Of a stretch of DNA of 64,000 nt, positions 3,597-49,198 are shown in pieces. The stretch is taken from contig JAEEWM010000017.1 of assembly GCA_016287385.1 (NCBI GenBank), forward strand, positions 1-64,000, read 5' to 3'. This DNA is from Clostridiaceae bacterium. Lineage in GTDB: Bacteria; Bacillota; Clostridia; Oscillospirales; Acutalibacteraceae. How positions within the stretch are numbered: the stretch's first letter is position 1; each line of letters starts with the position of its first letter. The notes under the pieces are model-generated. The model worked only from the letters and a program-made list of their open reading frames with translations. It did no database searches and was not told the origin of the DNA. The translations under genes were made by a program, and so were the position numbers.

Positions 3597-4328
3597 TTAC
3601 CGCTTTTCCGCGCCGTCCAGCAGTTTTCGATCGTCTTCGGACAGTTTAAGCTTACGGAACATATCCTTACGGCGACGTCCGGTTTCAAGAAGCGACTGAA
3701 GCCTTCGCCATTTTTCTATTTCAGCATGATTGCCGGAAAGCAGAACCTCGGGCACTTCCCTGCCGAGCCACTGCGCCGGTCTTGTGTACTGCGGGTATTC
3801 GAGAAGTCCGGCAAAATGGCTTTCCTCCTCGAAGCAAATATCATCCGCCAGCACGCCTTCAAGCATTCTGCAAACGGCGTCGGTGAGTGTCAGCGCAGGC
3901 AATTCCCCGCCGGTAAGCACGTAATCGCCCACCGAAATCTCTTCATCGACTATTTCGTCTATAACGCGCTGGTCAACGCCTTCATAATGTCCGCAGAGAA
4001 TAACGATTCTGTCAAGCTTTGAAAGCTCGACCACCCGCTTTTGGGTGAGTGTTTTGCCTTTGGGCGACATATATATAAGGTGCGGCTTCGGCTCATCCTC
4101 ACCGTAAAGACTTTTATAGCAGTTATATATAGGCGCCGCCGCCATTATCATACCCATTCCGCCGCCGTAGGGCATATCATCGACCTTGTTATGCTTGTTG
4201 CCGGCGAAATCGCGGATATCGGTAATCACTATACTGACCTTGCCCGCCTTGCGCGCCCTGCCGATTATGCTTTCGGAAACGACCCGTTCGCACATATCGG
4301 GGAAAAGCGTCATTATATCAATCCTCAT
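3597..4328 (-). CDS. trmD: tRNA (guanine37-N1)-methyltransferase
   Basis: A 243-residue SPOUT-class methyltransferase that makes m1G37 in tRNAs reading CNN/GNN-type codons, preventing +1 frameshifts. The N-terminus MRIDIMTLFPDM and the YGGGMGM loop are diagnostic; LCGHYEGVDQRV and SVGDYVLTGGE form the trefoil-knot SAM site. I place the start at the ATG at 4328, because the family begins this way; a TTG two codons upstream is possible. It overlaps the end of rimM by 11 bases. In many Firmicutes rplS follows trmD; here the operon ends and HPr follows instead. Confidence 0.95.
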   Translation of the reverse strand: MRIDIMTLFPDMCERVVSESIIGRARKAGKVSIVITDIRDFAGNKHNKVDDMPYGGGMGMIMAAAPIYNCYKSLYGEDEPKPHLIYMSPKGKTLTQKRVVELSKLDRIVILCGHYEGVDQRVIDEIVDEEISVGDYVLTGGELPALTLTDAVCRMLEGVLADDICFEEESHFAGLLEYPQYTRPAQWLGREVPEVLLSGNHAEIEKWRRLQSLLETGRRRKDMFRKLKLSEDDRKLLDGAEKR

Positions 4329-4830
4329 CGTCAAATATACCTTTCATCGGACATATTTCGATTATCTCTTTTTCTATATCAACGTTCTTTACCACTTCGT
4401 CTATCGCGGGTAAAAGATATTCTTTTTCGCCGTTTTTGATGTGCCACACGTCGTTCGCGCCGGTTTTTGAAACATCGCTTAACACGCCGTATGCGGCGCC
4501 GGTGGCGAAGTCCTTAACCGCACACCCAATAAGTTCGCTTACAAAATAGCGGTCAACGGGTAAACCTGCGTCTTCACGCTTTATATAAAGCACCCGGTTT
4601 CGCAGCTTTTCCGCCTGCTCTATCGTATCAACGCCCTCTATCTTCGCAATAACGACATTGCCGTGCGGCTGTATTTTTTCAATTTTTAACGGCTTCTTTT
4701 CGGTGCCGGTGTAAAGCGTATCAAAGCCGCATAAAAACGCGCCGTCATCCGCCCACGGCATTATTCGCACCATACCGCGCACACCGTGAGTGCCTACAGC
4801 TTTACCGACTTCTATAAACTCTTTTTTCAT
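4318..4830 (-). CDS. rimM: Ribosome maturation factor
   Basis: A 170-residue RimM that assists assembly of the 30S head by binding S19. The N-terminal RimM barrel has VGKAVGTHGVRGMVRI; the C-terminal PRC barrel has YLLPAIDEVVKNVD. It is the upstream partner of trmD, with overlapping ends. The Shine-Dalgarno is weak (AGGCGGTG). An intrinsic-terminator-like hairpin lies between khpA and this gene, so rimM-trmD may be made at a lower level than the ribosomal genes before it. Confidence 0.95.
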   Translation of the reverse strand: MKKEFIEVGKAVGTHGVRGMVRIMPWADDGAFLCGFDTLYTGTEKKPLKIEKIQPHGNVVIAKIEGVDTIEQAEKLRNRVLYIKREDAGLPVDRYFVSELIGCAVKDFATGAAYGVLSDVSKTGANDVWHIKNGEKEYLLPAIDEVVKNVDIEKEIIEICPMKGIFDDED

Positions 4831-4856
4831 AACACACCGCCTAACACCTGAATGGA

Positions 4857-4908
4857 AAAAATACCCCCTCGTATGCGGAGGGGGTCTTCCGGCGGGAATT
4901 TCCGCCGG
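4857..4908 (-). terminator. Internal terminator/attenuator between khpA and rimM
   Basis: Read on the minus strand, a first hairpin (arms 4902-4908 and 4889-4895, CCGGCGG/CCGCCGG) is followed by a second (4878-4885 with 4863-4870, ACCCCCTC/GAGGGGGT, 7-base loop) and then ATTTTTT. The second has the form of an intrinsic terminator within what is otherwise a continuous operon, so partial read-through into rimM-trmD is likely. Confidence 0.75.
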
Positions 4909-4919
4909 GAAATCTTATT

Positions 4920-5156
4920 TTATTCGTCAATGTCAACCGCGATTTTCTGGTCGTTGCGGTTAGCGGCGGCACGCATAACCGTGCGGATAGCCTTGGCTAT
5001 TCTGCCCTGCTTGCCGATAACTCTGCCCATATCGTCCTGCGCCACGCGAAGGTGATATACTATAATACCCTCTTCGTTGGGCTCGTCAACAGTAACGTTT
5101 ACCGCTTCCGGATTCTCAACAAGACCGGACGCGATCGCAATAAGAAGTTCGCTCAT
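4920..5156 (-). CDS. khpA: KH-domain RNA-binding protein KhpA (YlqC)
   Basis: A 78-residue single KH domain with the RNA-gripping loop in VIGKQGRIAKAI (GxxG type). In Firmicutes KhpA pairs with KhpB (Jag/EloR) and affects cell elongation and RNA metabolism. Its position after rpsP and before rimM is the conserved one. The 98-base gap to rpsP holds a GC-rich hairpin (5211-5228) without a T-run. Confidence 0.93.
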   Translation of the reverse strand: MSELLIAIASGLVENPEAVNVTVDEPNEEGIIVYHLRVAQDDMGRVIGKQGRIAKAIRTVMRAAANRNDQKIAVDIDE

Positions 5157-5254
5157 AATAGATTTTCTCCAAACTTAAAACTTTTAATTCTTGCGGCAAC
5201 AGCCGCGTTTTTCCGCGCAAGCGCGGAAGTGCATCTGAATCAGGAACCGCGTTA

Positions 5255-5497
5255 TCAAAGAACGCCGTTCTTTTTGAGAAGCGCTTTTACCGTATCGGTA
5301 GGCTGAGCGCCGTTTTTGATCCACTGCTGAGCTTTTTCGGCGTCGATTTTCACCTGCGCCGGCTCTTTGGTCGGGTCATAGTAACCGATTTCTTCAATGA
5401 AACGTCCGTCACGCGGATATCTCGAATCGGCAACGACAACGCGATAGAAGGGCGCTTTTTTTGCACCAATTCTGCGAAGTCTGATTTTAACCGCCAT
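5255..5497 (-). CDS. rpsP: 30S ribosomal protein S16
   Basis: An 80-residue S16. The start [19 protein letters not shown] and the segment [22 protein letters not shown] are family hallmarks. It lies between ffh and khpA as in other Firmicutes. A GGAGGTG site precedes the ATG. Length is normal. Confidence 0.97.
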
Positions 5498-5546
5498 ACT
5501 CTTGCACCTCCAATTAAAATTTATATGTTCAAGGTAAAATGTTACC

Positions 5547-6887
5547 CTAAAAACCTAAACTGCTCGGGTCAAAGCCGCGAAGCATACGGCGCTTGCCGCC
5601 CTTGCTTCTCATCTGCTTAAACATTTTCTTCATCTGATCGTACTGCCGCATAAGCCGGTTTACGTCTTCCACGGTCTGCCCGCAGCCCGCCGCGATACGC
5701 CTGCGGCGAGAAGCGTTTATTATATCCGGGTGCGTACGCTCCTTCTGCGTCATCGACTTGATTATCGCCTCTACCCTGTCCATCTGGCGTTCATCTATAT
5801 CGGCGTTGCGAAGCTGCTTATCCATACCCGGAAGCATTGAAAGAATATTTTTGATACTGCCCATTTTTTTAAGCTGGGCAAACTGATCGAGCAGGTCGTT
5901 CAGGTCAAACTTGTTCTCCTGAATACGCCTTGCCGCTTCCTCAGCCTTCTTTTCATCAAGCTGGGTTTCCGCTTTTTCAATGAGCGAGAGCATATCGCCC
6001 ATACCGAGTATACGCGACGCCATACGGTCGGGATGGAACTCCTCAAGTCCGTCAAGCTTTTCACCGACGCCGGCGAACATAATGGGTTTGCCCGTTACCG
6101 CGCGTACCGAAAGCGCCGCGCCACCGCGAGTGTCACCGTCAAGCTTGGTGAGGATAACGCCGTCGATTTCAAGCAGGTCGTTAAATTCCTTTGCTACGTT
6201 TACCGCGTCCTGACCTATCATTGCGTCGACCACAAGCAGTATGTCGGTAACCTCGACCGCTTTGGTTATGCGGACGAGTTCCTCCATAAGCTCGGTATCT
6301 ATATGAAGACGTCCCGCGGTATCGAGGATAACGTAATCGTAACCGTAATCCCTCGCGTACGCCACCGCCTCTTTCGCGGTTTTCTCGGGCGGCTGCGTGC
6401 CGCGTTCAAAAACGTAAGCGTCAACCGCGGCGCCTACCACCTTTAACTGCTCGATGGCCGCCGGACGGTATATATCGCAGGCAACGAGCATAGGCCGGTT
6501 GCCCTTCGATTTCAGATATTTTGCAAGCTTCGCGCTGTGAGTGGTTTTACCCGAGCCCTGAAGACCGCACATCATAATGACGGTGGGTATCCTCGGCGCT
6601 ACTTTAAGCCGCGCGTTTTCGCCGCCCATAAGAGCGGTCAGCTCATCGCGCACTATACGAACGACGCTCTGCGCGGCGGTAAGACTTTCAAAAACGTTTT
6701 CGCCTATACATTTTTCGGTGAGAGTATTGGTAAAATCCTTTGCGACCTTATAGTTTACGTCGGCTTCGAGAAGGCTGAGACGCACTTCGCGCATCGCCTC
6801 TCTTACGTCGCTTTCGGTAAGTCTGCCTTTGTTGCGCAGTTTTTTGAAAACACCCGTAAGCTTATCGGAAAGACTTGAAAACGCCAT
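5547..6887 (-). CDS. ffh: Signal recognition particle GTPase Ffh/SRP54
   Basis: A 446-residue SRP protein that binds signal peptides on nascent chains and targets them to FtsY at the membrane. The N domain leads into the G domain (P-loop [15 protein letters not shown], then [20 protein letters not shown]). The methionine-rich M domain ([10 protein letters not shown], then [16 protein letters not shown]) binds 4.5S RNA and signal peptides. I start at the ATG at 6887, because GGAGGTG is correctly spaced from it; a GTG three codons earlier overlaps that site. It follows ylxM by 32 bases. Confidence 0.96.
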
Positions 6888-39135: not shown

Positions 39136-39239
39136 TAAATGTTTTTTCTGAAACGCTTATATCTTTTTTATAAAATAGTACTTTATTTTTTGCGCGCGGT
39201 GTGTTATAATTTTGTATAATCGTGTATCGGGTGAAGGAA

Positions 39240-40001
39240 ATGCTTGAAAGCAAAGAAACGCAAAACAACATAATATGCGGCAGAAATCCCGTGCTTGAAG
39301 CGCTGCGCTCCGGTCGGGAGATAGACCGTCTGCTTATTGCTCACGGCGTAAGCGGCGGCAGTATCAGCGAAATTGTCGCCAAATGCTCGAAAAGGGGCAT
39401 CCTCATTAAGGAAGTCAGTCCGCAAAAACTTGATTACTACTGCGGCGGCGCAAATCACCAGGGCGTCGCGGTGACTTTTGCTTTCAGGGAATACTGCACG
39501 GTAGACGATATACTCGATTTTGCGAAAGAAAGCGGCGAGGAGCCTTTTATTCTGGTTTGCGATGAAATAGAGGATCCGCACAACCTCGGCGCCATTATAC
39601 GCACGGCGGAAGTTTGCGGCGTACACGGTGTGATAATTCCGAAACGCCGCTCCGCTTCGCTTAACGCGACTGTGGCAAAGACAAGCGCCGGCGCACTCGA
39701 ATACATGAGAGTGGCGAGGGTCACAAACATCGCCGCGACCCTTGATTTGCTGAAAGATAAAGGCGTGTGGATATTCGGCGCCGATATGGACGGCGAAAAT
39801 TATTCGCTGACCGATTACCGGATACCTTGCGCGCTGGTTATCGGCAACGAGGGCAAGGGCATAGGACCGCTTGTGGCAAAAAAATGCGATAAAATCATCA
39901 GTCTTCCGATGAGGGGAAGGATAAACTCGCTGAACGCATCAGTCGCGGCGGGCGTTCTGATGTACAGGGTTATGGAGTCAAGGATTATACAGAGAGATTA
40001 G
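39240..40001 (+). CDS. rlmB: 23S rRNA (guanosine-2'-O)-methyltransferase RlmB/TrmH-type
   Basis: A 253-residue SpoU-family 2'-O-methyltransferase. An N-terminal L30e-like substrate-binding domain opens IICGRNPVLEALRSGREID. The SPOUT domain contains DEIEDPHNLGAIIRTAEV, LVIGNEGKGIGPLV and LNASVAAGVLMYRV, the three family motifs. The ATG at 39240 gives the usual start; a GTG at 39222 is in frame but lacks a site. It leads an operon with the pseudo-ATPase, metG and tatD. Confidence 0.93.
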   Translation: MLESKETQNNIICGRNPVLEALRSGREIDRLLIAHGVSGGSISEIVAKCSKRGILIKEVSPQKLDYYCGGANHQGVAVTFAFREYCTVDDILDFAKESGEEPFILVCDEIEDPHNLGAIIRTAEVCGVHGVIIPKRRSASLNATVAKTSAGALEYMRVARVTNIAATLDLLKDKGVWIFGADMDGENYSLTDYRIPCALVIGNEGKGIGPLVAKKCDKIISLPMRGRINSLNASVAAGVLMYRVMESRIIQRD

Positions 40002-40015
40002 AGGTACGTTTTATT

Positions 40016-42775
40016 ATGGCAAAAAAGGCAAAATACGACGCCGACGAATTTATACTCGATGTTGAAAGCGGCGATTCAAATGAGCAGGAGCAGGGACAGG
40101 ATCTGCTTGCCGAAAAGAATAAAAAAGTTCTTTCACGCTTCGGTCGCAGAGCAATGAGCGAAGATTCGCCCATACTCGAAATGATTTCCGCAAAAAAGAA
40201 ATCTTCGCCGCTTGACCAGCTGAAAAAGCGCATGGGTGTAGAAGCGGACTCAGCGGCAAAAAGCGCGAATACCGATACAGATAATACCGCCGGGGAACCT
40301 GAAAGGTTCGAAACAGAAGCCGCAAATCAGGGTGAAACTTCTGTCGGTAAAGCTGACGTATCAACCGAAAAGCGGGATATTACCGCCGACGCACCCGAGG
40401 CACACAAGCCGGAGGTTGAGGCACCCGCCGATGACGGCAGCGGTCGGGAAGGCGAAATGTCGCTTCTCGAAAAACTCAAAAGATACACTACCGACGAGAC
40501 CGGCCATAACGTAACCGATGACAAGGCACCGCTTTACAAGCTTCAAAGCGTTGCGGAAATCATCAAAAAGGATAACGACGCGCTGCTCAGCAAGCTTTCG
40601 GAGAAATACGACGTCACGGTAGATACGCTCGGCAAACCGCAAAAGAGCGATTTTCTGCTTGACGGTATCGATGAGCCGAAAGAACCGGCAAAGCCGGAAC
40701 CCGGCAGGCACACCCCCACTCCCGCTTTTGAAGAGATGGCGACCGAGTCAAAAAAACGCTTTGAAAAGAATCTGTTTGACGATTTGTTTGACGATGCAAA
40801 GCCGAAAGCTCCCGTAAAGGATGAAGGCGTACCGGACATATCGGACATCGACAATTTACACGTTTCCGGCGAAAAGGCGGTTTCCGAGCCGCCAGTTTCC
40901 AACGCCGCGACAATACGCTTTACCCCGGTAACCGATGAAAAAGGCAACACGGGGCGAATCAATATCAGCAGTACCACAAAACCCATCGACATACGTCAGG
41001 AATTGACAAACGCGGAGGAAACGGAAGAAACCTACGCCGATATACCGCTTGAAATGGGTGATTTTGATTTATTCGTACCGAAAAGCGAGGTTACGGACAT
41101 TTCATCCGCCAAAAGCACGGCAAAAAGGTTCGCGCTTAAAAAGCGCCGCAGCTTTTTGTCCTGCGCCGCCTGCGTAATCTGTATGCTGGCGCTTTTGCTG
41201 TTCCTTACGCCCGCACTTTCAAACTCACTTATAAGCTCTCCGAAATCCTCCGTCACGGTTTGCAGTATATTTCTGCTTTTAACGGTTGCCGTAAACGCCG
41301 ATATGTTCACGGACATTCCAAACCTTATGAAACGCCGCGCCTCACACGATTCGGTAATAAGTCTTTGTGCGCTTACCTGTTTACCGCTTTGCATATCCGC
41401 AATAGCGACAGGCGAGAATATATACCATCTTATCCTGCTTGCCGCGTTTTTGATGACCGTGCGGTCGGTTATAACCTTTATGGAAACCTCCGCCCTGCTT
41501 TCAAATCTGCGGCAGATTTCGGGCAAATCTCAAAAATACGCTCTGTCTTTTATCAAGGATAAATCTACGGCTCTCGCCATGGCAAAAGACGCCATTGACG
41601 GCGAGGTCCTTATAGCCGCGCCGAGAAAAACCGAATTTGTGAGCGACTATATGAAGTTTTCCTCTTACAAAAAGAAATTCTCGGGCAAAATAACCGTCGT
41701 GTTCGCGGTCACCTGTATTCTTTGCCTGCTCGGCGGCGTGATATCGCTTCTTCTCTATAAAAGCGCGTTTGCCGCGTTTTACAGCGCGGCGGTTACCGCG
41801 ATGCTCGCCTGCTCACCGGCACTTTTCTTCGTTGACGTACTTCCGGTTTTTTATACGGCGAAAAAGCTTAACCGCAAAGGCGCAATGATAACCGGAACCT
41901 TCGGCGCGGACAGCGTTGAGCTTTCAAACGCCGCCGTTGTAAACTCTTCGGATATATTCCCGAAGGGAACCATAACGCTTCAAAGTCTTAAGGTTTTATC
42001 CGACAACGATATAGACAAAACCATCGTAAAAGCCGCCGCGCTCACCGAGGCGATAGACAGTCCCCTCTTCCCCGTATTTAACCAGATAGCCGGTACGAAC
42101 GCTTCATACGAAAAGCCGGATTCCGATACCATAAAGTACGAGGAAACGCTCGGTGTTTCGGGCTGGGTAGACGACGAGCTGCTGTTTATCGGAAATCGCA
42201 GTCTGCTTGAAGGACACGGAATTGAAGTGCCGAGCATTGAGGTTGACAGAAACATTCTGCGCAACGGCTGCTTCCCGGTGTACGTCGCCGTCGCAGACAG
42301 GGCGTGCGCTTTGCTTGTCGTGCGCTATGAAGTCAAGCCCGACGTACGCAAGATTTTGAGGAAGGTATCGCGGCTCGGCGTAACCATGCTCGTAGCCAAC
42401 AGCGACCCGAACATAAACGAAAGCATGATCTGCGATTATTTCGGGCTTTATGACGATTCGGTCAAGGTGATGACAAATGTGGGAGCGTACATGTGCAAAA
42501 ACGCCACCGCCGAAACAAGCGTTGTCTCCGCGCCCGCGGCATTCAGAGGCAGTAAACTGAACGTATTACGCATTATTGCCTGTGCTTCGGATATGAGAAT
42601 ATCAAACAATATACTGTCGGTATTTTACGTACTTTCGGCGGTGCTCGGCGTATGGTATTTTGCCTTCACGTCGTTTGCGCAGTCAAAGGCACTGCTTGCC
42701 GGTACGTCGGTTCTTTTGTTTGAACTGCTTGCCGCAGTTTTCGCGTATATCGCGTTTTTATTCAGAAAACCGTAA
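40016..42775 (+). CDS. P-type-ATPase-like membrane protein lacking catalytic residues
   Basis: A 919-residue protein, read intact. Residues 1-370 are an acidic, Lys/Glu/Pro-rich, probably disordered cytoplasmic region. Hydrophobic helices follow near 378-400, 410-430, 445-463, 470-490, 558-580 and 585-610, with two more at 858-880 and 893-915. This 4+2+2 layout, with ACSPALFFVDVLPVF in the helix where P1B ATPases have CPC, and KLNRKGAMITGTFGADSVE after it, matches P-type ATPases. Where DKTGTLT is expected the text is FPKGTIT (648-654), so the phosphorylated Asp is lost. The actuator loop (about 495-555) is short and has no TGE. GDN and GDGxND are absent. The N/P-domain skeleton is still legible (GVSGWVDDELLFIGNRSLL at 713-731, then VYVAVADRACALLVV at 755-769). 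AGAGGT precedes the ATG. Confidence 0.75.
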   Translation: MAKKAKYDADEFILDVESGDSNEQEQGQDLLAEKNKKVLSRFGRRAMSEDSPILEMISAKKKSSPLDQLKKRMGVEADSAAKSANTDTDNTAGEPERFETEAANQGETSVGKADVSTEKRDITADAPEAHKPEVEAPADDGSGREGEMSLLEKLKRYTTDETGHNVTDDKAPLYKLQSVAEIIKKDNDALLSKLSEKYDVTVDTLGKPQKSDFLLDGIDEPKEPAKPEPGRHTPTPAFEEMATESKKRFEKNLFDDLFDDAKPKAPVKDEGVPDISDIDNLHVSGEKAVSEPPVSNAATIRFTPVTDEKGNTGRINISSTTKPIDIRQELTNAEETEETYADIPLEMGDFDLFVPKSEVTDISSAKSTAKRFALKKRRSFLSCAACVICMLALLLFLTPALSNSLISSPKSSVTVCSIFLLLTVAVNADMFTDIPNLMKRRASHDSVISLCALTCLPLCISAIATGENIYHLILLAAFLMTVRSVITFMETSALLSNLRQISGKSQKYALSFIKDKSTALAMAKDAIDGEVLIAAPRKTEFVSDYMKFSSYKKKFSGKITVVFAVTCILCLLGGVISLLLYKSAFAAFYSAAVTAMLACSPALFFVDVLPVFYTAKKLNRKGAMITGTFGADSVELSNAAVVNSSDIFPKGTITLQSLKVLSDNDIDKTIVKAAALTEAIDSPLFPVFNQIAGTNASYEKPDSDTIKYEETLGVSGWVDDELLFIGNRSLLEGHGIEVPSIEVDRNILRNGCFPVYVAVADRACALLVVRYEVKPDVRKILRKVSRLGVTMLVANSDPNINESMICDYFGLYDDSVKVMTNVGAYMCKNATAETSVVSAPAAFRGSKLNVLRIIACASDMRISNNILSVFYVLSAVLGVWYFAFTSFAQSKALLAGTSVLLFELLAAVFAYIAFLFRKP

Positions 42776-42790: not shown

Positions 42791-44707
42791 ATGTCAGAAA
42801 AGAAAAAATTTTACATCACTACCGCTATCGCCTACACCTCGCGTAAGCCGCACATAGGCAACGCTTATGACGTGGTGCTCGCGGATATGATAGCGAGATA
42901 CAAGCGCCGTAACGGATATGACGTTTTCTTCATGACCGGTTCGGATGAGCACGGGCAGAAAATAGAAGAATACGCGCATAAAGCCGGTATGACACCAAAA
43001 GAATACGTAGACGGCGTATCAGGCGAAATCAAGAAGGTATGGAAAAGCCTCAACACAAGTTACGACAAGTTTATCCGTACGACCGACGCCGATCACGAAA
43101 AAGCCGTTCAGCACATTTTCAAAAAGCTTTACGACAAAGGCGATATTTACAAGGGCGCTTACGAGGGCAAATACTGTGTTCCCTGCGAATCGTTCTTTAC
43201 ATCCTCACAGCTTGTTGACGGCAAGTGTCCCGACTGCGGCAGCGAGGTTATAGACGCGAAAGAAGAAGCGTACTTCCTCAGACTTTCAAAGTATCAGGAC
43301 GCCCTTGTAAAATACTACGAGGAAAACCCCGATTTTATCAAGCCGGATTCCCGCAAGAACGAGATGATAAACAACTTTATAAAGCCCGGTCTTGCGGATC
43401 TGTGCGTTTCACGTTCGAGCTTCAAGTGGGGTATCCCCGTAACCTTTGACGAAGGTCACGTTATATACGTATGGATAGACGCGCTTTCAAACTATATCAC
43501 CGGTATCGGCTTCGATACCGACGGCAACGCCACAGAGCAGTACAAAAAACTGTGGCCGGCGGACCTGCACGTTATCGGCAAGGACATCGTGCGTTTCCAT
43601 ACTATTTACTGGCCTATTATCCTGCTTGCGCTCGGCGAGCCGCTGCCTAAACAGGTGCTCGGTCATCCGTGGGTGCTCGTAGGCGAAGACAAGATGTCCA
43701 AATCAAAAGGCAACGTGATTTACGCCGACGAATTGGCTGATATGTTCGGCGCGGATTCGGTAAGGTACTATCTGCTAAGCGAAATACCCTTTGCGCAGGA
43801 CGGCACTATCACTTACGAATCGTTTATAAACAAATACAACACCGACCTTGCAAATACGCTCGGAAATCTCGTAAACCGCACCGTAGCCATGGCGGGAAAA
43901 TATTTCGGCGGTACGGTTGATTCTCTCGGCAAAAGCGACGCGCTTGACAGCGAGCTTATATCCTTTGCCGCCGACACGGTAAAGAAATACACTGATAATA
44001 TGGAAACCTACCACAACGCGGACGCCGTGGCGGCGCTGATGTCGCTCGGCAGGCGTTCAAATAAGTATATTGACGAGACGGCGCCGTGGGTGCTTGCAAA
44101 AGACGACGCGGACCGTGACAGACTTAAAGCCGTGCTTTATAATCTGCTCGAATGTATCCGTATACTCGGCTCAGCGATTTACCCGATCATGCCCGAGTGT
44201 TCGGATAAGATTAAAGCGTTGCTCGGCACCGATAAAACGTCGCTCGAATTCGGCGCGGTAAAAACCTACACCGTGGGCGAGGCAACACCGCTCTTTGCAA
44301 GAATCGATACCGAAAAAGTGCTTGCCCAAATAGCCGAAAAGCAAAAAGCGCAGAGCGAGACCGCCCAAAACACGGTTAAACTCGAAGAAATATCAATAGA
44401 CGAATTTGCAAAGGTCGAGCTTCGCGCGGCGAAGGTCGTTGCCTGTGAGCCGATACCGAAAGCGAAAAAGCTGCTTAAACTTACCCTTGACGACGGAAGC
44501 GAAAAACCGCGCGTGGTAGCTTCGGGAATTGCCAAATTCTACTCACCGGAGGACCTTATAGGCAAAACCGTCATAGTTGTGGCGAATCTTAAACCCGCCA
44601 CACTTTGCGGCGTGGAGTCGAACGGTATGATACTTGCCGCCGACAGCGGCGACGAGGTAAAGGTCGTGTTTCTTGACGGCGTAGAGCCGGGCAGTAAAAT
44701 AAGATGA
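42791..44707 (+). CDS. metG: Methionyl-tRNA synthetase
   Basis: A 638-residue class I synthetase charging tRNA-Met. The HIGH-type motif is KPHIGNAYD, the zinc knuckle is CVPCESF with CPDCGSE, and the KMSKS motif is GEDKMSKSKGN. A C-terminal tRNA-binding (EMAP/Trbp111-like) domain begins near residue 540 (FAKVELRAAKVVACEPI), which helps dimer formation and tRNA binding. It overlaps tatD by 4 bases. Length is normal for the Firmicutes form. Confidence 0.97.
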   Translation: MSEKKKFYITTAIAYTSRKPHIGNAYDVVLADMIARYKRRNGYDVFFMTGSDEHGQKIEEYAHKAGMTPKEYVDGVSGEIKKVWKSLNTSYDKFIRTTDADHEKAVQHIFKKLYDKGDIYKGAYEGKYCVPCESFFTSSQLVDGKCPDCGSEVIDAKEEAYFLRLSKYQDALVKYYEENPDFIKPDSRKNEMINNFIKPGLADLCVSRSSFKWGIPVTFDEGHVIYVWIDALSNYITGIGFDTDGNATEQYKKLWPADLHVIGKDIVRFHTIYWPIILLALGEPLPKQVLGHPWVLVGEDKMSKSKGNVIYADELADMFGADSVRYYLLSEIPFAQDGTITYESFINKYNTDLANTLGNLVNRTVAMAGKYFGGTVDSLGKSDALDSELISFAADTVKKYTDNMETYHNADAVAALMSLGRRSNKYIDETAPWVLAKDDADRDRLKAVLYNLLECIRILGSAIYPIMPECSDKIKALLGTDKTSLEFGAVKTYTVGEATPLFARIDTEKVLAQIAEKQKAQSETAQNTVKLEEISIDEFAKVELRAAKVVACEPIPKAKKLLKLTLDDGSEKPRVVASGIAKFYSPEDLIGKTVIVVANLKPATLCGVESNGMILAADSGDEVKVVFLDGVEPGSKIR

Positions 44708-45489
44708 TATACCCGAAAGAGTTAAAGCTCGAAAAGAATCTTATAATCGACACTCACGCGCATTATGACGATAAGAAATTTGACGGTATAAGGGATGAAC
44801 TGCTCTTATCGCTTCACGAAAACGGAGTTAAAAAAATAATCACCTGCGCGGTAGACGGCGCCTCGGCAAAGGACGCGCTCGCGCTCGCCGATAAGTTTGA
44901 TTTCATTTACGCCGCGGTGGGAATACACCCCGAAAACCTCGAAAGCAAAACACCGCTTGACGAAATAAGAAAACTTGCCTCCCACAAAAAATGCGTGGCA
45001 ATCGGTGAAATCGGTCTGGATTATTACTACACCTCCGATAATAAAGATGAGCAGAAAAGGGTCTTCGAGAGTCAAATCATTTTGGCAAACGAGCTCGGTC
45101 TGCCGGTGATAGTGCATGACCGCGAGGCACATTCGGATACGCTCGAAATAATAAAAAAACACAGACCGAAGGGCGTGCTCCACTGCTTTTCGGGCAGTGC
45201 CGAAATGGCGGCTCAAATCGTTAAATACAGTATGTATATAGGTGTGGGCGGCGTTATCACCTTCAAAAACGCAAAAAAAATGCCTGCTGTGATAAGAGCC
45301 GTGCCGGAAGACCGGTTACTGCTTGAAACCGACTGTCCGTATTTGGCGCCCGAGCCGTACAGAGGAGCGCTTTGCCATTCCGGTTTTATAAAGCTTACGG
45401 CGGAGAAGACGGCGCAGATACTCGACACAACGCTTGAAGACGTGCTCACTTTTACCGCGCAAAACGCCGAAAAATTATTTGCCTTTTAG
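44704..45489 (+). CDS. tatD: TatD-family metal-dependent DNase
   Basis: A 261-residue TIM-barrel hydrolase. Metal ligands are in IIDTHAHYDD, GEIGLDYYY, VIVHDREAHSD, HCFSGS and LETDCPYLAP. TatD proteins are 3'-5' exonucleases linked to DNA repair and fragmentation. The metG-tatD pairing is conserved in Firmicutes. A terminator follows 7 bases after the stop. Confidence 0.94.
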   Translation: MIYPKELKLEKNLIIDTHAHYDDKKFDGIRDELLLSLHENGVKKIITCAVDGASAKDALALADKFDFIYAAVGIHPENLESKTPLDEIRKLASHKKCVAIGEIGLDYYYTSDNKDEQKRVFESQIILANELGLPVIVHDREAHSDTLEIIKKHRPKGVLHCFSGSAEMAAQIVKYSMYIGVGGVITFKNAKKMPAVIRAVPEDRLLLETDCPYLAPEPYRGALCHSGFIKLTAEKTAQILDTTLEDVLTFTAQNAEKLFAF

Positions 45490-45681: not shown

Positions 45682-46053
45682 CTAATTGCTGTGTTCCTTC
45701 AAATGTTTCTTTATCGCACGAAAGGTTTTTTCACTTATATAGTGCTCTATCCTGCAAGCGTCGTCGCTGGCGGTTTTTTCATCAACGCCGAGGCTGATGA
45801 GCACCGCCGTAAGCGTGGTATGGCGCTCGTAAATATTTTTTGCGGACTTCGCGCCCTTTTCGGTAAGTTCAATATTGCCGGACGGATCAATGGTGATTAA
45901 CCCTTCCTCTTTAAGCAGTCCCATCGCCCTGCTTACAGAAGGCTTCGAAAAGCCCATATAAGCGCCTACGTCAATAGCTCTGACGCCGGACATTTTTTTT
46001 GAAAGAATATAAATTGTTTCAAGATACATTTCGCCTGATTCTTTTACTGCCAT
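45682..46053 (-). CDS. DtxR/MntR-family metal-dependent repressor
   Basis: A 123-residue regulator: winged helix-turn-helix (VRAIDVGAYMGFSKPSVSRAM, about 25-45) and the short metal-binding dimerization domain (DDACRIEHYIS). It lacks the SH3-like third domain, as MntR does. It faces the feo operon, whose promoter holds three GTTAG/CTAAC-type palindromes of the DtxR kind. An iron-sensing repressor of feoAB is therefore likely; a manganese role cannot be excluded. Confidence 0.88.
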   Translation of the reverse strand: MAVKESGEMYLETIYILSKKMSGVRAIDVGAYMGFSKPSVSRAMGLLKEEGLITIDPSGNIELTEKGAKSAKNIYERHTTLTAVLISLGVDEKTASDDACRIEHYISEKTFRAIKKHLKEHSN

Positions 46054-46467: not shown

Positions 46468-46689
46468 GTGAACACGTTAAGACAGGCGAAAATAGGTCAG
46501 ACCGTGAAGGTTAAAAAACTGCACGGCGAAGGAGCGGTTAAACGCAGGATTATGGATATGGGTATCACCAAGGGCGTTGATATCTATATCCGCAAGGTGG
46601 CGCCGCTCGGCGACCCCGTGGAAATCACGGTAAGAAACTATGAATTGTCAATCAGAAAAGCCGACGCCGAAATGATTGAAATCGAGTGA
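46468..46689 (+). CDS. feoA: FeoA-family SH3-like protein, copy 2
   Basis: A 73-residue paralog starting with GTG after AAAGGAG. VKRRIMDMGITKGVDIYI and PLGDPVEITVRNYELSIR are the classical FeoA signature, closer to consensus than copy 1. Tandem feoA genes before feoB are common in clostridia and may form a heteromeric complex with FeoB. Confidence 0.94.
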   Translation: MNTLRQAKIGQTVKVKKLHGEGAVKRRIMDMGITKGVDIYIRKVAPLGDPVEITVRNYELSIRKADAEMIEIE

Positions 46690-46699
46690 GGTATCAAAA

Positions 46700-49198
46700 A
46701 TGGACAAAAAAATCAAAATAGCCCTCGCGGGCAACCCGAACAGCGGTAAAACAACTCTGTTTAACGCGCTTACCGGCTCAAATCAGTTTGTGGGCAACTG
46801 GCCGGGCGTTACGGTCGAGAAAAAAGAAGGAAAGCTCAAAAAGCGAAGCGATGTTACGGTAACCGATTTGCCGGGCATATACTCCCTCTCCCCCTATACT
46901 CTTGAAGAAGTCGTTGCGAGAAACTATCTGATAAACGAATGCCCCGACGTAATACTCAATATTGTTGACGGCACCAATCTTGAAAGAAACCTTTATCTTA
47001 CAACACAGCTGACCGAGCTCGGGATACCGGTCGTAGTCGCCGTTAATATGATAGATATCGTGCGTAAAAACGGCGATAAAATCGATATCGCGGAATTATC
47101 GCACAGACTCGGGTGCAAGGTGCTTGAGATATCCGCGCTTAAGGGCACCGGCGTAAATGAAGCGGCAAACGCGGCTGTCGAGGCGGCACACGGCGGAGCT
47201 GCTACTTTGCAGCACACCTTCTGCGGAACCGTTGAGCACGCGCTCGCGCATATTGAAGAAGCGCTCTTACACGATATGCCGGAGCAAAAACAGCGCTGGT
47301 ATTCAATAAAGATTTTCGAGCGCGACGAAAAGGTGCTTGAAAGTCTGAACGTACCCGCCGATAAACTGGCGCACATCGAGGACGACATCAAAGCGGCGGA
47401 AAAAGAGCTTGACGACGATTCCGAAAGCATTATCACAAACGAAAGATATCTGTACATAGCCACGGTCATCAAGGCGTGCTATAAAAAGAAAAACGCCGGC
47501 AAGCTTTCACGGTCTGATAAAATCGATAAGGTGGTAACCAACCGCTGGCTCGGGCTTCCGATATTTGCGGCGGTCATATTCCTTGTTTACTTCATAGCTA
47601 TGGTATGGATAGGTACTCCGATGACCGATTGGACAAACGATAATCTTTTCGGCGACGGTTTTCACCTTTTCGGCATAGGTTCGGCACAGGCACAAGAGGA
47701 CGCCGACGATTACGCGGCGGCGACAAACGCGCTGTCTGCTTACGGCTTTGAGTTTGACGCCGAGGAAGAAAACTTTGACGCCGACGCGCTGAGCGCCGAG
47801 ATAAAAAATTACGAAACCGATAAATCATCGGCACAAGTCGAAGTTACCGACGAAGAAACACTCGAGGTGTCGGAGTTAACGGTATACTATGATAAGATAC
47901 CCGACAACGCGGATGAAGAAGAAACCAACGCCATGACCTTCAAAGACGCGGCAAAATACTTCGCCGAAAACGGCTTTGAAGAACCCGACCCCGCAAGTCA
48001 CGGCGTTTTTGTACCGAGTATTCCCGATTTGGTCGGAAAAGGTCTTGAAAAAGCGGGCGCGGCAGACTGGCTTTCCGGTCTTATAAACGACGGCATTGTC
48101 GCCGGAGTAGGCGCCGTACTCGGTTTTGTTCCGCAAATGCTCGTACTTTTCTTACTGCTCGCCTTCCTTGAAGCGTGCGGCTATATGGCGAGAATCGCAT
48201 TCGTGCTTGACCGCGTTTTCAGGAAATTCGGACTTTCGGGCAAATCCTTCATACCCATGCTCGTCGGAGTAGGCTGCGGCGTTCCCGGCATTATGGCGAG
48301 CCGCACCATTGAAAACGAGCGTGACCGGCGTATGACTATAATGACTACCACCTTTATCCCCTGCGGCGCCAAGGTTCCGTTTATTTCAATGATAGCGGGC
48401 GCTATATTCGGCGGCTCGGCACTGGTGGCGACAAGCGCGTACTTCATAGGCATGGCGGCAATTATAGTTTCTGGCGTTATGCTTAAAAAGACAAAGATGT
48501 TCTCCGGCGACCCCGCACCGTTTGTTATGGAGCTTCCCGCGTATCATATGCCGACTCTCGGCAACGTTTTACGCTCAATGTGGGAGCGCGGCTGGTCATT
48601 TATTAAAAAGGCGGGCACAATAATACTTCTCTCGACAATAGTTGTATGGTTCACATCAAACTTCGGCTTTGCAAACGGCGGCTTCGGTATGCTCGGCGAG
48701 GATGAGCTGGAATATTCAATACTTGCAAAAATCGGCTCATGTATCGCCTGGATATTTACACCTCTCGGCTGGGGCAACTGGCAGGCGACCGTCGCTTCCA
48801 TAACCGGCCTTGTGGCGAAGGAAAACATCGTCGGCACCATGGGTATACTTTACAGCAGCGAGGGTTCCACCGTATGGCAGGCGTTAGGCGACGCGTTTAC
48901 CGGCGTAACCGGATTCTCGTTCCTTGTGTTCAACCTGCTGTGCGCCCCCTGCTTCGCGGCTATCGGCGCTATCAAGCGCGAGATGAACAGCGCAAAGTGG
49001 ACCTGGTTCGCAATAGGATATCAATGCGGTTTTGCCTATGTAATCGCGCTTATGATAAATCAGTTCGGCAATATATTCGTAGGCAAGACAAACGCTGTCG
49101 GACTCATCTTTGCGGCAGCGCTGCTTGCGGGCATGATATATATGCTCTTCTTCAAAAAATACAGTGAATCCGTAAGATTGAGCAAAAAAATCCGTTGA
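46700..49198 (+). CDS. feoB: Ferrous iron transporter FeoB
   Basis: An 832-residue inner-membrane Fe(II) transporter. The G domain has P-loop AGNPNSGKTTLFN, DLPGIYSLSPYT and VNMIDI. Membrane helices begin near residue 285; GVGCGVPGIMASR and FIPCGAKVPF are the Gate motifs with the conserved cysteines. Between the first helix and the next membrane region lies an acidic stretch of about 120 residues (322-442) rich in Asp, Glu and Ala, unlike the short loop of E. coli FeoB. The ATG at 46700 follows GAGG; an upstream in-frame start has no site. The start lies 10 bases after the second feoA stop. Confidence 0.96.
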   Translation: MDKKIKIALAGNPNSGKTTLFNALTGSNQFVGNWPGVTVEKKEGKLKKRSDVTVTDLPGIYSLSPYTLEEVVARNYLINECPDVILNIVDGTNLERNLYLTTQLTELGIPVVVAVNMIDIVRKNGDKIDIAELSHRLGCKVLEISALKGTGVNEAANAAVEAAHGGAATLQHTFCGTVEHALAHIEEALLHDMPEQKQRWYSIKIFERDEKVLESLNVPADKLAHIEDDIKAAEKELDDDSESIITNERYLYIATVIKACYKKKNAGKLSRSDKIDKVVTNRWLGLPIFAAVIFLVYFIAMVWIGTPMTDWTNDNLFGDGFHLFGIGSAQAQEDADDYAAATNALSAYGFEFDAEEENFDADALSAEIKNYETDKSSAQVEVTDEETLEVSELTVYYDKIPDNADEEETNAMTFKDAAKYFAENGFEEPDPASHGVFVPSIPDLVGKGLEKAGAADWLSGLINDGIVAGVGAVLGFVPQMLVLFLLLAFLEACGYMARIAFVLDRVFRKFGLSGKSFIPMLVGVGCGVPGIMASRTIENERDRRMTIMTTTFIPCGAKVPFISMIAGAIFGGSALVATSAYFIGMAAIIVSGVMLKKTKMFSGDPAPFVMELPAYHMPTLGNVLRSMWERGWSFIKKAGTIILLSTIVVWFTSNFGFANGGFGMLGEDELEYSILAKIGSCIAWIFTPLGWGNWQATVASITGLVAKENIVGTMGILYSSEGSTVWQALGDAFTGVTGFSFLVFNLLCAPCFAAIGAIKREMNSAKWTWFAIGYQCGFAYVIALMINQFGNIFVGKTNAVGLIFAAALLAGMIYMLFFKKYSESVRLSKKIR

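Follow-up and report, generated by a model that had tools for sequence, protein, structure and literature searches.

A P1B-like ATPase family without the pump motifs, kept beside rlmB across a bacterial order

What does a protein do that is built like a heavy-metal pump, lacks the motifs by which such pumps are recognized and is encoded among genes of translation? This question is raised by the window, the whole 64,000-nucleotide stretch of a Clostridiaceae bacterium contig (JAEEWM010000017.1) that we analysed, in which an intact open reading frame at 40016–42775 of the forward strand encodes 919 amino acids with no internal stops. An earlier note, made from the sequence, had placed this frame between rlmB and metG, and profile matches above their cut-offs confirm both neighbours: the upstream protein is RlmB (TIGR00186, 239.8 bits against a cut-off of 160.15) and the downstream protein is methionyl-tRNA synthetase (PRK12267, 885 bits against a cut-off of 598). 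By their coordinates, rlmB and the pseudo-ATPase gene are separated by 14 nt, the pseudo-ATPase gene and metG by 15 nt, and metG and tatD overlap by 4 nt. The genes of the locus are:

39222–40001, forward strand: rlmB, 23S rRNA (guanosine-2251-2'-O)-methyltransferase, the constant upstream partner (TIGR00186 match)
40016–42775, forward strand: P1B-type pseudo-ATPase gene, 919 amino acids (open reading frame, profile and structure-library matches)
42791–44707, forward strand: metG, methionyl-tRNA synthetase, the downstream neighbour in the genus of the window (PRK12267 match)
44704–45489, forward strand: TatD-family nuclease gene, after metG in the genus of the window (gene neighbourhood)

Around this group, we also observed a FeoB ferrous iron transporter at 46676–49198 on the forward strand (TIGR00437, with a match above cut-off that falls into two stretches), which has a long acidic insert at about residues 335–455, after the first helices and before the remainder of the protein. 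Between tatD and feoB, the opposite strand encodes a short metal regulator resembling MntR (NCBIfam match below threshold, 1.6e-25; 45682–46053, reverse), and a perfect sigma-70 consensus (TTGACA, 17, TATAAT; 39135–39107, reverse strand) is found at the start of a radC-like gene.

The family of the window protein is unnamed in the profile libraries searched (NCBIfam and Pfam). Searched whole, the protein matches the NCBIfam models CopA (3.5e-11) and ATPase-IB_hvy (6.3e-9), both far under the curated cut-offs, and CopA in the PDB (3rfu, 9.2e-9); the Pfam search gave a HAD match only, below threshold. A profile built from 34 relatives raises the match to the solved CopA structure 3rfu to 1.3e-32, the CopA model is matched individually by 26 of 34 family members (best, 1.7e-15), and HHalign aligns the family profile with three true pumps over 440 columns (99.6%, E = 4.2e-24). 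When hydropathy is averaged over 149 relatives, eight main peaks stand out as helices arranged as in P1B pumps (four, A domain, two, P/N, two), and two further tiny peaks flank them; the same averaged analysis revealed no strongly conserved charged residues within the helices. Profile matches and helix order together bear out the P1B-like core that had been proposed, and show that the family descends from P1B heavy-metal pumps of the CopA type.

Predicted structures, which the earlier note had suggested comparing with known folds by Foldseek, agree with this in part. A model of the P/N region, made from three sequences only (pLDDT 45.7), returned 50 matches with E ≤ 0.001, which are P-type ATPases or fragments thereof; Foldseek scoring also draws on sequence, so these matches add little independent support. 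The full-core model (pLDDT 40, likewise from three sequences only) had no Foldseek match below 0.001. Similarity to P-type ATPases, the absence of which at the level of the fold the note had named as evidence against its own reading, is thus present in the profiles and, weakly, in the low-confidence P/N model. In a tree of 50 of the 149 relatives (every third) and 24 pumps, the relatives form one clade (support, 0.70); the tree is rooted on the pumps and therefore says little about the sister group. The parts of the window protein are as follows:

40016–41113, forward strand: N-terminal acidic tail, residues 1–366, presumed disordered (composition, purifying selection)
41114–42772, forward strand: membrane core, residues 367–919, with eight predicted helices, a cytosolic A-domain remnant and a P/N head (profile coverage, averaged hydropathy, alignment)
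41477–41683, forward strand: A-domain remnant, residues ~488–556, without the TGE loop (read by eye from the alignment)
41942–41968, forward strand: remodelled P-domain site NSSDIFPKG, residues 643–651, replacing DKTGTLTxG (alignment)
42131–42226, forward strand: N-domain core, residues 706–737, in which G713 and G726 are conserved (alignment of relatives)
42326–42328, forward strand: Tyr771, a column with Tyr in 144/149 relatives and Asp in 24/24 pumps
42404–42412, forward strand: D797-P798-N799 at the place of the GDN motif (Asp in 147, Pro in 87 and Asn in 134 of 149)

We compared the motifs of 149 distinct relatives with those of 24 true pumps. Neither DKTGT, the retention of which in orthologues was to count against the earlier reading, nor TGES nor GDGxxND is in place in any relative (0/149 each); all three are in place in 24/24 pumps, a count that holds by construction for DKTGT, by which these controls were picked, and not for TGES and GDGxxND. 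Chance occurrences anywhere among the 149 relatives are few (DKTG twice, in N-terminal tails; TGE four times; GDGxxND once) and never in place. The window protein contains neither DKTGT nor GDGxxND anywhere, and its sole TGE (residues 465–467) lies, according to the alignment, between two early membrane helices and outside the A domain. When 34 relatives are aligned jointly with pumps, gaps fall at the A-domain TGE region and at the GDGxxND region, the latter in all 34. The A-domain loop between the helices has a median of 71 residues (range, 58–88) in the 149 relatives versus 136 (12–137) in the 24 pumps, among which the short loops, from 12 residues, are read as cut alignments. The TGE loop and GDGxND are therefore missing as had been claimed, and two other claims of the earlier note hold with corrections. 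DKTGT is lost, but its counterpart is not FPKGT: DKTGTLTxG corresponds to NSSDIFPKG, such that FPKG replaces LTxG and Asn643 occupies the catalytic column. Similarly, GDN is lost as a motif but its Asp survives, as D797 within SDPN.

The nucleotide pocket is eroded unevenly. Its Glu and His (SEHPL) are found in 0 and 0 of the 149 relatives versus 22 and 24 of the 24 pumps. The N-domain glycines are kept (G713 in 145/149 relatives and G726 in 149/149), and half of the Gly and Asn positions of the ATP pocket are kept in part (G353 in 43, G355 in 145 and N369 in 68 of 149). With the pocket Asn present in 68/149 and one pocket glycine in 43/149, some ATP binding by the family would still be conceivable.

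At the CPC metal site of helix M4, the first Cys is present in 5/149 relatives and the Pro column is kept in 91/149. This bears on the idea that the family uses the P-type scaffold to pass or carry cations without ATP, as has been claimed for Mg2+ and human ERMA (TMEM94). Such a path could draw on the full helix set, which is kept, and has a precedent in ERMA (PMC13322241). The scarcity of the first Cys and the lack of strongly conserved charge within the helices speak against it, however, as does ERMA itself, which, according to that paper, retains and needs its Asp (PMC13322241). We consider a cation path unlikely.

The site that takes the place of DKTGT has a pattern of its own. There, [DE] is found in 136/149 relatives, [FY] in 144/149 and Pro in 130/149, with all three in 117/149; Tyr771, D797 and the Asn two places on occur jointly in 134/149, the Asp of D797 being shared with pumps. 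Three elements, [DE]-x-[FY]-P, Tyr and D-x-N, thus make up a conserved signature that is new to the P-domain pocket. Random decay does not describe the dead site, because it has this signature and because purifying selection acts on core and tail. We infer that the remodelled site may be a rebuilt binding pocket rather than an active site.

An acidic signature could also belong to a divergent, still active phosphotransferase, in which the acids of D-x-[DE]-x-F-P and D797 form a phosphorylated HAD-like site. Consistent with this, an Asp is found in the catalytic column in 31/149 relatives and one place later in 84/149 (either place, 106/149; neither, 43/149), and D797 is kept in 147/149. In the set from the genus of the window (36 genes), however, the same two places hold an Asp in 1/36 and 0/36, such that the Asp nucleophile of HAD motif I (DxD) is not a feature of that genus, for all its frequency in the whole family (31 and 84 of 149). 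The GDGxxND and TGE segments are also absent in the aligned relatives, and no relative has the pocket Glu or His (0/149). An active phosphotransferase seems to us quite improbable. An Asp acting in catalysis from the canonical position or the one after it (106/149 relatives have an Asp at either) had been a candidate in its own right; we demoted it to a rival on the counts of 1 and 0 of 36 in the genus of the window and on the loss of the other motifs. The Asp in the catalytic column (31/149) or one place later (84/149) and the partly kept Gly and Asn positions of the ATP pocket nonetheless count against a fully dead site. The orthologue comparison that the earlier note had proposed is thus clear for DKTGT (0/149) and less so for the lone Asp of the catalytic column.

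In front of the core, the claimed acidic region of about 370 residues is found in the window protein as a tail of 366 residues, with a net charge of −29 and 36% charged residues. Compared with the relative L032, the core has a dN of 0.13 and a dS of 1.02, and the tail a dN of 0.24 and a dS of 2.01, the latter near saturation; compared with L031, dS is saturated. Both core and tail of the window protein are under purifying selection. Conservation, selection and gene order bear out the statement that this is not a decayed gene, and rule out a pseudogene reading. Two relatives, L033 (G058; 4164–6560) and G449:C2:17006–18667, contain one in-frame stop each (TGA and TAA) and are either broken copies or assembly errors in an otherwise kept gene.

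Tails vary between genera (median length, 286 residues). A strict motif, [FY][STN][LIV][DE][DE]IL, is found in 30/147 tails versus an average of 0.01 in 200 shuffles, and a looser form in 55 tails versus 0.9 in shuffles; both were picked after inspecting the tails, and the tail of the window protein has neither. A loose pattern that spans the helical motif of the tails and a helix of RlmB matches 22/101 family proteins, 28/90 RlmB proteins and 1/614 other neighbour genes. This apparent resemblance, a pattern drawn after the fact and one that the window tail does not share, is only a lead. We rejected the tail motif as a docking motif common to other proteins: a 20-column profile, run against 30 genomes of the order, gave matches at E ≤ 1 in 16 of them, for the most part to the family. 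The sole non-family match below E = 0.01 is a short and presumably HTH-like frame, and a weaker one is a frame that we take to be MazG-like; both are regarded as chance.

At a threshold of 1e-45, the family occurs in 228 of the 245 genomes of its order, which we take to be the Oscillospirales of GTDB, and in 180 of the 185 near-complete ones, with one match per genome except for G337, which has two. Being present in all but five of the near-complete genomes, the family is probably important. In a class sample, all nine order genomes have full-length matches (291–708 bits), and the best match among 236 non-order genomes covers part of the profile and scores 125.7 bits, the level given by true pumps. 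In a phylum sample at the same threshold (1e-45), 5 of 348 genomes match, all five of them from the order, as against 0 of the other 343, of which 20 listed genomes were checked to lie outside the order. We found no relatives in viral contigs. Five near-complete order genomes gave no match. In one of them, G303, the family gene begins after rlmB close to a contig end; the other four (G364, G335, G362 and G405) have no rlmB match either at 1e-20. In these four, the whole rlmB/pseudo-ATPase locus is absent from the assembly or lost, and joint loss and a shared assembly gap would look alike. In two cultured species, the locus lies on a plasmid-labelled record: NZ_AP023416.1 (L198; 860,917 bases) and OY725837.1 (L199; 116,409 bases).

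Gene order is constant on one side and variable on the other. At 162/172 loci, the same strand carries an rlmB gene upstream (at −300 to 1500 nt); these loci correspond to 144/149 distinct genes, and in 132 of these 144 the distance is at most 60 nt. Four of the five genes without rlmB have less than 100 nt of upstream sequence, and one (G037, L052) is truly different. Downstream genes vary, with an EF-G-like factor in 24/102 loci examined (one example identified), and metG and tatD in the genus of the window. The translation operon of the earlier note therefore fits that genus, but across the order only rlmB is a constant neighbour. Such an arrangement is relevant to the suggestion that the protein serves as a dead regulatory subunit, paired with one of the true P1B pumps of its own cell. 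Motif-complete pumps (L060, L061 and L062) do occur in genomes G048, G039 and G006, which also carry the dead copy, but the gene is tied to rlmB rather than to a pump, and we know of no P1B pump that needs a dead-subunit partner. A dead subunit is, in our estimation, improbable.

We think that the family is probably, although by no means certainly, a non-enzymatic membrane scaffold or receptor that evolved from a P1B pump and possibly serves ribosome biogenesis. The sequences show that DKTGT, TGES, GDGxxND, CPC and both pocket residues, Glu and His, were lost from a pump ancestor, whereas selection has kept a membrane core of eight helices with its N/P head and a long tail. The protein would no longer pump; its pocket and tail may bind a ligand or partners, such that it would act at the membrane as an anchor or receptor. 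Its constant pairing with rlmB points to a possible job in ribosome biogenesis or translation at the membrane, and it may also be mere shared expression, as other neighbours vary. The description of the window gene product as a ‘sensor or structural protein’ in the earlier note would seem a sound inference from its sequence. A far more specific version, that the scaffold is a membrane receptor for ribosome biogenesis in which the remodelled acidic pocket acts as a sensor of a ligand or cation and the tail as a docking place, at the membrane, for RlmB or ribosome precursors, is a long shot.

P-type ATPases are a textbook superfamily, and the family described here is a branch that lacks the catalytic motifs and is fixed throughout one bacterial order. 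A literature search (open-licence PMC papers only) and the libraries searched yielded no description of it. Enzymes that have lost their activity are familiar as such; a P-type pump that is fixed in this state across a bacterial order appears to be new, as far as this weak evidence of absence goes. As a natural experiment, the family can show what remains possible for the P-type scaffold when ATP is not used, and the link that it suggests between a membrane protein and rRNA modification is open to test.

Compared with P1B-type ATPases (CopA and ZntA; PRK10671, TIGR01525; PDB 3rfu), the family shares the profile over most of the core, the helix order and the N/P head, but has no DKTGT, TGES, GDGxxND, CPC or pocket Glu and His in place and has the new D/E-F-P, Tyr and D-x-N signature instead. 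Among the literature consulted, the nearest precedent seems to be ERMA/TMEM94, a eukaryotic P-type ATPase-like protein that is described as having DKQGI where pumps have DKTGT and GSSANL in place of GDGVND, as lacking TGES, as having its nucleotide pocket occluded on a P-type fold and as needing its Asp (PMC13322241). The likeness, going by that description, lies in the loss of TGES and GDGVND from a P-type protein; ERMA keeps its Asp (DKQGI; PMC13322241), whereas the window protein, with Asn643, goes further.

Within the order, two members of the NCBI Oscillospiraceae, Vescimonas fastidiosa (280 bits to the family profile) and Subdoligranulum variabile (363 bits), have rlmB on the same strand at the same locus. 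The V. fastidiosa protein (WP_212820792.1) differs from the window protein in being shorter (718 amino acids by its annotated span) and in that the DPN triplet was not found in its frame. Like the window protein, it has rlmB upstream, at 10 nt, none of the three pump motifs and the signature, as D-L-F-P-S-G. A cultured member of the order thus carries the gene, annotated only as a ‘hypothetical protein’.
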